A DNA stretch of 64,000 nucleotides, taken from Lutibacter sp. B1. GTDB taxonomy: Bacteria; Bacteroidota; Bacteroidia; Flavobacteriales; Flavobacteriaceae. A program made the position numbers and the translations under genes. The stretch spans positions 62,001 through 126,000 of the forward strand of contig NZ_JAAZUI010000006.1 of assembly GCF_012524075.1 (NCBI RefSeq), written 5' to 3'. Under the pieces are notes generated by a model. It saw only the letters and a program-made list of their open reading frames with translations. It did not search any database and was not told the origin of the DNA. Below are positions 36,540 to 41,106 of the stretch, one piece after another (within the stretch, counting starts at the first letter, position 1; each line of letters begins with the position of its first letter).

Positions 36540-36553
36540 TTTTTCAAATTTTG

Positions 36554-36626
36554 CACGGGTGGAGAGACTCGAACTCCCGACACCTGGTTTTGGAGACCAG
36601 TGCTCTACCAACTGAGCTACACCCGT
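36554..36626 (-). tRNA. tRNA-Trp (anticodon CCA)
   Basis: A 73-base cloverleaf on the minus strand: acceptor ACGGGTG pairs with CACCCGT, D-arm GTAGCTCAGTTGGTAGAGC, anticodon stem CTGGT/ACCAG with loop containing CCA, T-arm GGGAGTTCGAGTCTCCC-like. Discriminator G. No CCA end is encoded. It sits between tuf and secE. Confidence 0.97.
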
Positions 36627-37873: not shown

Positions 37874-37935
37874 GATTATTTAATTTTAATTTTTAAATCT
37901 TAGTTATATATAGTGTTAAATTCAATTCTATTTTG

Positions 37936-38007
37936 AGCCAATGACGGGAATTGAACCCGTGACCTCTTCCTTACCAAGGAAACGCTCTACCCCTGAGCTA
38001 CACCGGC
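37936..38007 (-). tRNA. tRNA-Thr (anticodon GGT)
   Basis: A 72-base cloverleaf: acceptor GCCGGTG pairs with CATTGGC (two G-U pairs), anticodon loop CTTGGTA within TTTCC...GGAAG context, T-arm ACGGGTTCAATTCCCGT. Discriminator T. Third-position G reads ACC/ACT codons. Confidence 0.96.
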
Positions 38008-38017
38008 CAAAAAAAAG

Positions 38018-38090
38018 AGCGGGAGACCGGGCTCGAACCGGCGACAGTCAGCTTGGAAGGCTGAAGCTCTACCAACTGAGCTACTCCCGC
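38018..38090 (-). tRNA. tRNA-Gly (anticodon TCC)
   Basis: A 73-base cloverleaf: acceptor GCGGGAG pairs with CTCCCGC, D-arm GTAGCTCAGTTGGTAGAGC, anticodon stem TCAGC/GCTGA with loop CTTCCAA, T-arm GCCGGTTCGAGCCCGGT-like. Discriminator T, usual for tRNA-Gly. Confidence 0.97.
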
Positions 38091-38140
38091 AATATTTTTT
38101 TCAATTCCTCGTTAATTTACATTTCTATAAATTAAATTTG

Positions 38141-38221
<81 letters not shown>

Positions 38222-38238
38222 ATTGTTTCAAAGATCTG

Positions 38239-38312
38239 AGCCGATAGAGGGACTCGAACCCACGACCTGCTGATTACAAATCAGCTGCTCTAGCCAGCTG
38301 AGCTACATCGGC
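38239..38312 (-). tRNA. tRNA-Thr (anticodon TGT)
   Basis: A 74-base cloverleaf: acceptor GCCGATG pairs with TATCGGC (one G-T wobble), D-arm GTAGCTCAGCTGGCTAGAGC, anticodon stem CTGAT/ATCAG with loop TTGTA, T-arm GTGGGTTCGAGTCCCTC-like. Discriminator T. First gene of the tRNA cluster. Confidence 0.96.
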
Positions 38313-38408: not shown

Positions 38409-38708
38409 TTATTTTGCTCTTACTTTTTCTTTTGTTTTAGTTAGTTGTCTTTTTAATGAATCTACAGCCAACATTACACCTTCTTCAAATGTTTTACACT
38501 GCTTTTTTACTACCATTTCGTTACCCGGTACATTAATTTTTACATCAACCAATTTATTTTCCTTTTCGCTTGTTTGTTGAACCTTCAAAAACACTTCAGA
38601 ATCAACTATTTTGTCATAATATTTTTCTAAACCATTTACTTTTTTCTCAATAAATTCAATAAGACCTTTGTCTGCATTAAAATTAACAGATTGCACAAAT
38701 ACTTTCAT
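38409..38708 (-). CDS. hpf: short-form ribosome hibernation promoting factor (HPF/RaiA family)
   Basis: A 99-residue protein with the ribosome-associated Sigma54-modulation domain fold: MKVFVQSVNFNADKGLIEFIEKKVNGLEKYYDKI, VFLKVQQTSEKENKLVDVKINVPGNEMVVKKQ and TFEEGVMLAVDSLKRQLTKTKEKVRAK. It lacks the C-terminal dimerisation domain of long HPF. These proteins bind the 30S decoding site when growth stops. The gene follows xerC by six bases, so it should be co-transcribed. Confidence 0.9.
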   Translation of the reverse strand: MKVFVQSVNFNADKGLIEFIEKKVNGLEKYYDKIVDSEVFLKVQQTSEKENKLVDVKINVPGNEMVVKKQCKTFEEGVMLAVDSLKRQLTKTKEKVRAK

Positions 38709-38714
38709 AATAAA

Positions 38715-39602
38715 TTAGTTTTTTCGGCTCCTTGGGTGAGCTTGGTTATATACTTCTTTTAATTTACCCAAACTACTATGGGTATAAACTTGAGTTGACG
38801 CTAAACTAGAATGCCCAAGTAATTCTTTAACGGAGTTTAAATCTGCGCCTTCGTTCAATAAATGAGTCGCAAAAGAATGCCTAATAACATGGGGACTCTT
38901 TTTAACTTTTGACGACACTGTACTAAAATAATTATTTATTACTCTATAAACAAGTGTATCGTACATTTTTTTACCTTTTTTTGTAAGTAATAAATATGGT
39001 TGATTAGTTTGTATATCAACCCTGTTTCTAATATATATTTTTAAAGTTGATTGAACCGATTTTAATAACGGTATGTATCTTTCTTTATTTCGTTTTCCTA
39101 AAACTTTAATTGTTTCATTTCCAAAATCTACATCTATTAATTTAATATTGATTAATTCACTTCTACGCATTCCTGTTGAATATAGTAACTCAACAATTAA
39201 TTTATTTCTTATGGTTTCAAAGTTACTTTCTTCTTCAATTATATTTAATACACTTAATATTTCTTTTTCAGAAAAAGGAACTTGAACCTGTTTTGCTACT
39301 TTTAAAGCTTTATGTTTAGCTAATGGACTTACATCAATCTGCTTTGTTTTTTGCAAAAACTTATAGAACGATTTTAATGAAGATACTTTTCTGTTTATTG
39401 AACGGTTTGAAATATTTAAATTAACCAAACTTACTATCCAACTTCTAACTTGAGAATAATTTACGCCTACAATACTTTGATTATTATATTCGTTATTACA
39501 AAATTCTTGAAATGAAATTAAATCATTTTTATAAGCAATTGCTGTATGCTTAGAATATTTTTTTTCTAGTACTAGGTAATCTAAAAAAGAATTTATAGGC
39601 AT
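38715..39602 (-). CDS. xerC: tyrosine recombinase XerC-like
   Basis: A 295-residue site-specific recombinase. The N-terminal SAM-like domain (INSFLDYLVLEKKYSKHTAIAYKNDLISFQEFC) is followed by the catalytic domain with Arg in LLYSTGMRRSELI, the Lys hairpin KVLGKRNKERYIPL, HVIRHSFATHLLNEGADL, LLGHSSLASTQVYTH. It fits chromosomal Xer recombinases that resolve dimers at dif, and its conserved setting beside rpsU and hpf argues against a phage integrase. ATG at 39602 (MPINSFLDYL) is chosen over an upstream in-frame ATG at 39623 that lies inside the rpsU terminator. The start codon directly follows the terminator T-run. Confidence 0.9.
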   Translation of the reverse strand: MPINSFLDYLVLEKKYSKHTAIAYKNDLISFQEFCNNEYNNQSIVGVNYSQVRSWIVSLVNLNISNRSINRKVSSLKSFYKFLQKTKQIDVSPLAKHKALKVAKQVQVPFSEKEILSVLNIIEEESNFETIRNKLIVELLYSTGMRRSELINIKLIDVDFGNETIKVLGKRNKERYIPLLKSVQSTLKIYIRNRVDIQTNQPYLLLTKKGKKMYDTLVYRVINNYFSTVSSKVKKSPHVIRHSFATHLLNEGADLNSVKELLGHSSLASTQVYTHSSLGKLKEVYNQAHPRSRKN

Positions 39603-39655
39603 AAAAAAACCGTTAGTATACAAACTTACGAATTGTTATTTGTAATTACTAACGG
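39603..39655 (-). terminator. rpsU terminator abutting the xerC start
   Basis: On the minus strand CCGTTAGTA (39655-39647) pairs perfectly with TACTAACGG (39618-39610), followed by seven T that run directly into the xerC ATG at 39602. The loop is long (28 bases) and contains a promoter-like element. Confidence 0.75.
39621..39628 (-). promoter_or_regulatory. candidate xerC promoter -7 element inside the terminator loop
   Basis: TAAGTTTG on the minus strand matches TAnnTTTG and lies in the loop of the rpsU terminator. A transcript starting 5-8 bases later would have a leader of about 10-13 bases before the xerC ATG. No clear -33 TTG is present. Confidence 0.45.
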
Positions 39656-39677
39656 CTAAATTGTTTTTGGCTAAAAA

Positions 39678-39875
39678 TTAACCTTGCTCTTCTTCTGTTC
39701 TTAATTTTTGAACATACTGAGCTTTTATATTTTGTGCACGCTTTGAAACTGAAGGTTTTGTGAATTGTTTACGGTCACGTAAAGTCTTCATTGTTTTTGT
39801 ACGATCGAATTTTCTTTTGTAACGTTTTAACGCTCTATCAATGTTTTCTCCGTCTTTAACTGGTATAATTAACAT
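39678..39875 (-). CDS. rpsU: 30S ribosomal protein S21
   Basis: A 65-residue bS21: MLIIPVKDGENIDRALKRYKRKFDRTKTMKTLRDRKQFTKPSVSKRAQ, with the usual basic helices. In Bacteroidota ribosomes bS21, with bS6 and bS18, sequesters the anti-Shine-Dalgarno end of 16S rRNA, explaining why the phylum barely uses Shine-Dalgarno sequences. The gene itself carries a ten-base perfect Shine-Dalgarno, a strong promoter and a terminator, consistent with autoregulation in which ribosomes lacking bS21 preferentially translate it. The sequence shows the signals; the autoregulation is known from Flavobacterium johnsoniae work. Confidence 0.97.
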   Translation of the reverse strand: MLIIPVKDGENIDRALKRYKRKFDRTKTMKTLRDRKQFTKPSVSKRAQNIKAQYVQKLRTEEEQG

Positions 39876-39882
39876 ATTTTAG

Positions 39883-39892
39883 CACCTCCTTT
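39883..39892 (-). promoter_or_regulatory. exceptionally strong Shine-Dalgarno of rpsU
   Basis: AAAGGAGGTG on the minus strand is fully complementary to the CACCUCCUUU 3' end of 16S rRNA. Nine bases separate GGAGG from the ATG. I saw no comparable Shine-Dalgarno before any other gene in this window. Confidence 0.9.
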
Positions 39893-39921
39893 CAAACTGT
39901 TCTATTTTTAAATTTGGACTG

Positions 39922-39951
39922 CAAAGATACAAATTTATTGATTATCAACAA
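39922..39951 (-). promoter_or_regulatory. rpsU promoter
   Basis: TATCTTTG (39929-39922, minus strand), followed by C, with TTG at 39951-39949 spaced by 19 bases: a full Bacteroidota promoter. The leader to rpsU would be about 40 bases and includes the Shine-Dalgarno. Confidence 0.8.
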
Positions 39952-39966
39952 TAAATTATTAAAAAA

Positions 39967-41106
39967 TTATTTTAGTATATCTCTCGCTATAACAAGCTTT
40001 TGTATTTCTGTAGTACCTTCTCCAATAGTACATAACTTAGAGTCTCTATAAAACTTCTCTACAGGAAAGTCTTTTGTATAACCATAACCTCCATGTATTT
40101 GAATTGCTTCACTTGCAATTTTAACACAAACTTCAGAAGCATACATTTTAGCCATTGCCCCAAGTTTGGTTATTCTTTCTCCTTTATTTTTTAAATACGC
40201 AGCTTTATGTAACAATAATTCAGATGCCTCAATTTCTGTTGCCATATCTGCTAATTTAAATGATATAGCTTGAAACTTACTTATTGGTTTTCCAAATTGT
40301 TCACGTTCTTTAGAATATTTTAAAGAAGCTTCATACGAGCCTTTTGCAATACCTAACGCTAAAGCTCCAATAGATATTCTTCCACCATCTAAAACTTTTA
40401 AAGCTTGTACAAAACCTTCTCCTTCTTCACCTAATAAATTATCTTTATGAATCCTACAGTTGTCAAAAATCATTTCTGCAGTTTCTGAAGCTCTCATCCC
40501 TAATTTATTTTCTTTTTTACCGGATGAAAATCCTTTAGTTCCTCTTTCAATTACAAAAGCTGACATTCCATGTGAATCTCCTTTTTCACCTGTACGTGTC
40601 ATAACAACTGCTATATCGCCACTTTTACCATGCGTTGTGAAATTTTTAGCGCCATTAATAATGTAGTAGTCTCCATCTTTAACTGCTGTAGTGCTCATAC
40701 CTCCGGCATCAGACCCTGTATTATGTTCTGTTAATCCCCAAGCTCCAATCCATTCTCCTGAAGCTAGTTTTGGTAACCATTTTTGCTTTTGCGCTTCATT
40801 ACCAAACTCTAATATATGATTTGTGCACAATGAATTATGCGCTGCTACTGATAACCCTATTGATGAATCTATTTTTGAAATTTCATCAAGAATAACAATA
40901 TAATCATGATAATCTAACTCTGAACCTCCATATTTATGTGGTACTAACACTCCCATAAATCCCATTTCACCTAATTTTCTAAATAATTCAACCGGGAAAG
41001 TTTGTTTTTCATCCCAATCCATCATATAAGGTTTAATATGCGTTTCACCAAACTTTTTAATACTTTCCGCAATTAGCTCTTGAGTTTCAGTAATGTCAAA
41101 ATTCAT
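39967..41106 (-). CDS. acyl-CoA dehydrogenase
   Basis: A 379-residue short/branched-chain acyl-CoA dehydrogenase. FAD/substrate motifs include WGLTEHNTGSDAGGM, GRISIGALALGIA, QIHGGYGYTKDFPVEKFYRDSK and the catalytic Glu region IGEGTTEIQKLVIARDIL. It introduces the alpha-beta double bond in acyl-CoA during beta-oxidation or branched-chain amino acid breakdown. Substrate range cannot be read from sequence. It lies seven bases after the helix-hairpin-helix gene and may share its transcript, although no functional link is obvious. Confidence 0.92.
   Translation of the reverse strand: MNFDITETQELIAESIKKFGETHIKPYMMDWDEKQTFPVELFRKLGEMGFMGVLVPHKYGGSELDYHDYIVILDEISKIDSSIGLSVAAHNSLCTNHILEFGNEAQKQKWLPKLASGEWIGAWGLTEHNTGSDAGGMSTTAVKDGDYYIINGAKNFTTHGKSGDIAVVMTRTGEKGDSHGMSAFVIERGTKGFSSGKKENKLGMRASETAEMIFDNCRIHKDNLLGEEGEGFVQALKVLDGGRISIGALALGIAKGSYEASLKYSKEREQFGKPISKFQAISFKLADMATEIEASELLLHKAAYLKNKGERITKLGAMAKMYASEVCVKIASEAIQIHGGYGYTKDFPVEKFYRDSKLCTIGEGTTEIQKLVIARDILK

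Follow-up and report, generated by a model that had tools for sequence, protein, structure and literature searches.

The rpsU1 locus

The window analysed here is the whole 64,000-nucleotide stretch of Lutibacter sp. B1 DNA. Its minus strand carries rpsU, which encodes bS21 and which we call rpsU1 to distinguish it from a second bS21 gene described below, followed by a xerC-type tyrosine recombinase gene and a hibernation-factor gene (Table 1). The leader of rpsU1, read on the minus strand, is GTTTGAAAGGAGGTGCTAAAATATG. An earlier note on this DNA had described a ten-base perfect Shine-Dalgarno sequence nine bases before the rpsU ATG. The signal is real, but the perfect run is 11 bases long and its last G is separated by 7 bases from the ATG at 39875; the figure of nine holds if the spacing is counted from GGAGG. 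The duplex of this element with the 16S tail of the genus has an energy of -19.9 kcal/mol.

Table 1 Features of the rpsU1 locus in the window
Feature	Position	Strand	Remarks
Extended Shine-Dalgarno sequence GAAAGGAGGTG	39883-39893	minus	11 contiguous Watson-Crick pairs with CACCUCCUUUC, the 16S tail of two same-genus genomes
rpsU (rpsU1), bS21, 65 aa, Tyr54	39678-39875	minus	PF01165; best PDB match 7jil_z
TATCTTTG, probable promoter -7 element	39922-39929	minus	46 nt between box and rpsU1 ATG
Imperfect inverted repeat, then T run; possible terminator	39603-39655	minus	Between rpsU and xerC, by reading
xerC-type tyrosine recombinase gene	38715-39602, ATG at 39602	minus	PF00589, PF02899
Hibernation-factor (S30AE) gene, second neighbour of rpsU	38409-38708	minus	PF02482

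The probable promoter box was recognized by its match to the -7 consensus TAnnTTTG, and this promoter type is outside the coverage of our sigma-70-type promoter scan. The same motif lies at most 120 nt upstream of rpsU in 79 of 80 relatives (the best 80 of 575 bS21 loci). Downstream of rpsU1, a terminator scan of the gap before xerC detected none; among the same best 80 of 575 loci, 55 have a perfect stem of at least 6 with a T-rich tail 3' of rpsU. The stretch from 38409 to 39875 thus places two ribosome-state genes, rpsU and the hibernation-factor gene, in one conserved row with xerC. Five tRNA genes (36553-36626 and 37935-38312) surround tuf, in a stretch flanked by a nusG-like gene on one side and the hibernation-factor gene on the other.

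Pairing with the 16S tail

The element had also been described as fully complementary to the 3' end of 16S rRNA. The 16S tails of two same-genus genomes both read GGAACACCTCCTTTCT and are complementary to the rpsU1 element; the organism's own 16S gene, sought three times in its assembly, was not found. That absence carries little weight because the 16S family search gave matches in just 3 of 31 genus genomes. Of 24 additional flavobacterial genomes, 8 had the same tail GGAACACCTCCTTTCT and the remaining 16 gave no match. Energies for relatives were computed with the tail as read in the genus, replacing an assumed tail with GGAUCACC. Some relatives read GGTGAT in their leaders, and we considered covariation of the leader with the 16S base before CACC. 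This idea was rejected because both GGTGAT genomes whose tail was located (G046, locus L113, and G047, locus L114) retain GGAACACC.

The rpsU1 signal is an outlier in its genome

The earlier note had proposed that a strong Shine-Dalgarno sequence occurs only at rpsU and that the genome's genes be scored for complementarity to the anti-Shine-Dalgarno. We scored 733 ORF starts against ACACCUCCUUUCU; they come from 864 kb, made up of the window and 40 stretches and amounting to 25% of the genome. rpsU ranks first at -19.9 kcal/mol, and the best other credible start reaches -10.1 kcal/mol. The nominal second start (L138, -15.0 kcal/mol) was rejected: its ATG has 51 open codons upstream and lies among internal codons of a longer open frame, LGGGSN, presumably a MurB motif, so the next credible start is the one at -10.1 kcal/mol. 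Within the window, 52 starts were scored, and the 51 other than rpsU lie at -5.0 kcal/mol or weaker, bar one at 41106 (-9.3 kcal/mol), where GGAGG stands 15 nt from the ATG. Other ribosomal protein genes of this genome have leaders at -9.9 (rplI), -1.9 (rpsR) and +1.8 kcal/mol (rpsF).

A reversed-tail control gave the following numbers of starts: 27 real against 38 control starts at -5 kcal/mol, 18 against 16 at -6, 10 against 12 at -7, 7 against 3 at -8, 5 against 3 at -9 and 3 against 0 at -10, the control having no primary start at this last level among the 733. These counts show no general use of Shine-Dalgarno sequences in the 25% scored, and rpsU is an outlier. When the starts were extended to every in-frame ATG within the leading 30% of an ORF, -13 kcal/mol was reached by 4 against 3 in the control, and -18 kcal/mol by 1 against 0. 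Fitted with an exponential, the remaining starts predict, for the whole genome, one gene at -13.2 kcal/mol and 0.024 genes at -19.9 kcal/mol.

Three patterns were searched in the whole genome. AAAGGAGGTG occurs at 11 sites, against 3 for the reversed pattern, and stands at a gene start only at rpsU; of the other ten sites, seven are in same-strand ORFs, two are antisense to ORFs and one is outside ORFs. AGGAGGTGN3-10ATG occurs at 15 places (11 reversed), again at a gene start only at rpsU. AAAGGAGGN4-12ATG occurs at 23 places (21 reversed); besides rpsU, one of these (L228, -12.0 kcal/mol) precedes a plausible ORF, of 192 codons, and the AAAGGAGG found there forms the final codons (KGGY-stop) of the preceding gene. 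The long element is unique within the reach of these searches, and shorter purine-rich leaders are not. Many genes with equally strong signals, which would speak against the proposal, were found neither among the 733 starts nor with the genome-wide patterns, and the restriction of the strong signal to rpsU holds up over 25% of the genome by scoring and over all of it by pattern. As a separate observation, the one AAAGGAGGTG site outside ORFs (L031, near position 23693 of contig C58 of this genome) forms one half of a hairpin that a T run follows, and looks terminator-like by eye.

Conservation of the rpsU1 leader

We compared the leaders of the best 80 of 575 bS21 loci in the genome collection, as the earlier note had also suggested. 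The closest named relatives of the protein, among the matches listed, are from Lutibacter (92% identity), in the family Flavobacteriaceae. The strong signal is kept: 79 of these best 80 of 575 loci have a Shine-Dalgarno sequence at -16.3 kcal/mol or stronger. In many leaders a G-U pair interrupts the Watson-Crick run with strength retained, as in GAAGGGAGGTG from Polaribacter. Tyr54 is kept in all 80 (best 80 of 575), and xerC and the hibernation-factor gene lie downstream in all 78 relatives with at least 1 kb of downstream sequence. The lone weak leader of the 80, L108 near 3001, is a first-class rpsU with a weakened Shine-Dalgarno sequence (-11.4 kcal/mol). Because these loci were picked by their similarity to rpsU1, they are uninformative on other bS21 copies.

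The conservation bears on whether the rpsU match could have arisen by chance. Ten of the 11 genomic AAAGGAGGTG sites do lie away from gene starts, but only about 0.04 start matches are expected (from 11 sites and 8 spacings, with 3000 genes assumed), and a chance match is refuted because the element is conserved, strong pairing being kept in 79 of the best 80 of 575 relatives. We regard this explanation as having almost no probability.

Relationship to the Flavobacterium johnsoniae system

The best PDB matches of the organism's own bS21, bS18 and bS6 are chains of 7jil, from F. johnsoniae; Tyr54 was assigned by position. Of the 7jil sequences, those of bS18 and bS6 recur in 8 PDB entries and that of bS21 in 5, so the entries 9oyv, 9ozz and 9p0e may be ribosomes without bS21.

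In F. johnsoniae, a pocket formed by bS21, bS18 and bS6 is described as holding the 16S tail, and mutation or depletion of bS21 raises expression of reporters with a strong Shine-Dalgarno sequence (PMC9976891). Without bS21, ribosomes start translation of rpsU more quickly and that of other mRNAs more slowly, and intact ribosomes translate rpsU poorly, bS21-mutant ribosomes doing so 3 to 5 times better (PMC9976891). McNutt 2023 credits the model of rpsU autoregulation to Jha 2021, and its authors state that ~80% of Flavobacteriales fulfil their criteria (PMC9976891). The pairing threshold for an rpsU of the F. johnsoniae type is beyond -13 kcal/mol; rpsU1 lies at -19.9 kcal/mol, a value that is comparable to the paper's values and not identical with them, as the paper's program differs.

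As far as the published account describes it, the F. johnsoniae system resembles the one here in an extended Shine-Dalgarno sequence near -20 kcal/mol at rpsU that is the one exceptional case in its genome. The two also share Tyr54 and close bS18 and bS6, and the anti-Shine-Dalgarno is canonical in two genomes of the Lutibacter strain's genus. They differ in that the Lutibacter genome has an additional bS21 gene, which lacks a Shine-Dalgarno sequence. The earlier note had suggested a bS21 feedback at this locus. The near-unique extended Shine-Dalgarno sequence, the genus 16S tail, Tyr54 and the 7jil-like bS18 and bS6 all agree with that suggestion, the feedback itself being known from F. johnsoniae. 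On this comparison we consider the feedback reading well founded by homology as a prediction for this organism.

rpsU2, a further bS21 gene whose leader lacks a Shine-Dalgarno sequence

A Pfam S21 search of the organism's own genome gave two matches over the cut-off, the window gene and a gene at C116:12562-12723, which we call rpsU2. rpsU2 (PF01165) is intact, with no stops, and encodes 64 residues including Tyr54; the two proteins are ~52% identical. The contig is 34 kb long and its other ORFs look like ordinary chromosomal genes. The leader of rpsU2, CATACAACTATAATATTAAAATAATAT, scores +1.8 kcal/mol and has no Shine-Dalgarno sequence, so this gene should be readable by complete ribosomes. 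With a second gene present, the supply of bS21 need not rest on the feedback gene alone. bS21 thus seems to be supplied by two genes of opposite translational logic, where we infer the role of rpsU2; this gene could also be barely expressed.

The surroundings of rpsU2 are constant across the genus. The same GNAT gene lies downstream in 24 of 24 genus copies and the same MarR-family gene upstream in 22 of 24. A GTTTCN4GAAAC palindrome is present in the promoter region of all 24, its first base being 49 to 60 bases upstream of the ATG. Its 20-base form, ATWGTTTCYNNRGAAACWAT, was found at 23 of 364 loci, always at rpsU2 (three of these are the same place in the organism's own genome), and is present in 21 of the 24 copies; a search of the window for its 16-base core, with one mismatch allowed, gave no match. 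This palindrome is likely a repressor site. The adjacent MarR protein may bind it, and ATTGTTTCTATAGAAACAAT is a candidate operator for this neighbouring protein.

We found no paper describing a flavobacterial second bS21 gene in the open-access literature, the scope of our search. In the accessible text of McNutt 2023, the lineages with extra bS21 are other phyla and phages, Bacteroidota being named only via phages, and the survey drew its genes from annotation (PMC9976891). Extra S21 in Bacteroidota is likewise not named in the accessible text of Yutin 2012.

Two classes of bS21 gene in the Flavobacteriaceae

Among 395 genomes of the order, at least two bS21 matches were found in 98 of the 239 that belong to the family, compared to 2 of the 156 from other families. 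Within the family they occur in 23 of 38 genomes of the genus (the organism's own included) and in 75 of 201 others. The two multi-match genomes outside the family, G345 and G415, have listed contamination of 7% and 6%.

We read 110 bS21 copies from 94 genomes (30 best loci plus 80 places chosen among the matches listed) and sorted them by whether xerC lies at most 1.1 kb downstream, a criterion that does not draw on the leader. All 23 xerC-linked copies, the first class, have a signal at -17.5 kcal/mol or stronger, and 86 of the 87 copies with no such link are weaker than -13 kcal/mol. L255 has a strong signal and no xerC within 1.1 kb; its genome gave no other match, and by its protein it belongs with the first class. 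Partial signals occur in the second class at L246 (-9.8 kcal/mol) and L253 (-6.8 kcal/mol). Tyr54 is present in all 110 copies read. Both classes were read in 13 genomes, in all of which the xerC rule holds, and the organism's own genome is a 14th. Of 16 single-match genomes read, 10 have a signal-bearing copy and 6 have only a signal-less or weak one: G016 (62% complete), G083 (88%), G113, G151, G217 and G255 (99% each). The G217 assembly is a single contig, and its one match carries no signal. In these six either rpsU1 was missed by the search or the feedback gene is lacking.

The presence of two genes raises the question of whether the strong Shine-Dalgarno sequence merely boosts rpsU output, the feedback lying idle because, for example, rpsU2 keeps ribosomes filled with bS21 and the tail hidden. 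A second bS21 gene with Tyr54 in the same genome fits this explanation. On the other hand, the element is retained in all 13 genomes for which a copy of each class was read, and the 3- to 5-fold better translation of rpsU by bS21-mutant ribosomes of F. johnsoniae speaks against it (PMC9976891). Since intact F. johnsoniae ribosomes are described as poor on rpsU, the element is no plain booster there. We consider simple boosting improbable in Lutibacter, and prefer the feedback reading for rpsU1.

A single sigma-70-type gene family lies upstream of 30 of the 84 unlinked copies that have an upstream ORF (one representative was Pfam-checked), and a convergent DUF2797 family makes up 40 of the 87 downstream ORFs of unlinked copies. 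The signal-less bS21 genes directly 3' of a sigma-70-type gene (30 loci, e.g. L324, L333 and L345) recall the rpsU-rpoD linkage of the E. coli operon, yet they are separate from the xerC-linked copy. L357, L342 and L251 represent a third kind of bS21 gene, directly 3' of a cold-shock-domain gene (one representative checked). Several leaders have a hairpin and T run ~20 bases before the ATG, and the leaders of L322 and L306 are similar. Among second-class copies from other genera, 13 of 62 have a TTAGG...CCTAA repeat upstream, compared to 0 of 24 signal-bearing copies. It resembled an operator but was rejected as one because, in the leaders, it runs over the 3' end of the sigma-factor gene upstream, stop codon included.

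In a protein tree of 160 distinct proteins and 64 columns, in which L255 was labelled by its leader, many forks are open and the bootstrap was not settled. In this tree 61 signal-bearing rows and one viral row form one branch (support 100/99), and 50 signal-less copies form another (99/80), which is free of viral rows. The rpsU2 copies of the genus fall outside both branches, partly unresolved, also against the viral rows. Among the viral loci, 0 of 46 (23 distinct) have a bS21 leader at -9 kcal/mol or stronger.

Bacteroidetes phages carry extra bS21 with an aromatic residue at position 54 (PMC9723584), and the viral loci read here have no Shine-Dalgarno sequence. One could take rpsU2 for a passing phage acquisition with no settled role, phage bS21 genes being common and likewise signal-less. 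We think this quite unlikely: rpsU2 is chromosomal, with conserved bacterial neighbours that are fixed across the genus and a promoter palindrome in 24 of 24 genus copies, and the 50-row signal-less branch (99/80) contains no viral rows.

A further explanation, which we consider less likely than not, is that rpsU2 encodes a specialised bS21 whose ribosomes would select different mRNAs, as proposed for Francisella and phage bS21. The rpsU2 proteins form a lineage distinct from rpsU1, the organism's own pair is ~52% identical, none of the 46 phage-type loci (23 distinct) has the signal either, and bS21 heterogeneity has a described precedent (PMC9578407). Francisella tularensis, too, has more than one bS21 gene per genome, but Francisella mRNAs are described as commonly having Shine-Dalgarno-like sequences and its bS21 a different C-terminus (PMC9578407). 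Here, in contrast, the two genes differ by the presence of the Shine-Dalgarno sequence itself, in a group that hides the anti-Shine-Dalgarno. Against a specialised bS21, Tyr54 in all 110 copies argues for the same tail-hiding role.

Discussion

The rpsU1 element is a new instance of a known autoregulation, which the literature offers as a clear case of bacterial ribosome specialisation. We explain its translation by a Shine-Dalgarno/anti-Shine-Dalgarno helix of exceptional length; this pairing, its near-uniqueness, its conservation and the conserved partner proteins are seen in the sequences. bS21, bS18 and bS6 hide the 16S tail in this group, so that 30S subunits without bS21 should form the helix most readily, and bS21 would thereby limit its own synthesis; by analogy with F. 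johnsoniae, where the feedback was demonstrated, it presumably works in the same way in this organism. The leader of rpsU2, in turn, should suit ordinary ribosomes that contain bS21, control lying at the promoter, and the gene may provide bS21 or a variant of it in conditions that transcription determines, independently of the translational feedback. Taken together, we think it quite probable that rpsU1 is autoregulated through the long helix and that rpsU2 is a transcription-controlled source of bS21.

rpsU2 is the weightier of the two, in that it reveals natural genomes that could make bS21 with no feedback element. Surveys that use one annotated S21 gene per genome may score the wrong copy. 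More tentatively, and with somewhat less than even confidence, we suggest that in many Flavobacteriaceae rpsU1 would be read best when bS21 is missing, rpsU2 would be read by complete ribosomes under a promoter switch, and exchange of the two bS21 proteins would alter the ribosomes. The switch would be a MarR-type site in this genus, and elsewhere the gene often lies beside a sigma-70 gene. With Tyr54 kept in its protein, an induced rpsU2 would occupy the pocket and thereby silence rpsU1, and the cell could in this way swap one kind of bS21 for the other and change its ribosome population. Two-gene genomes allow one to ask whether ribosomes with each bS21 differ, and whether the loop is insulated from the second gene or overridden by it.
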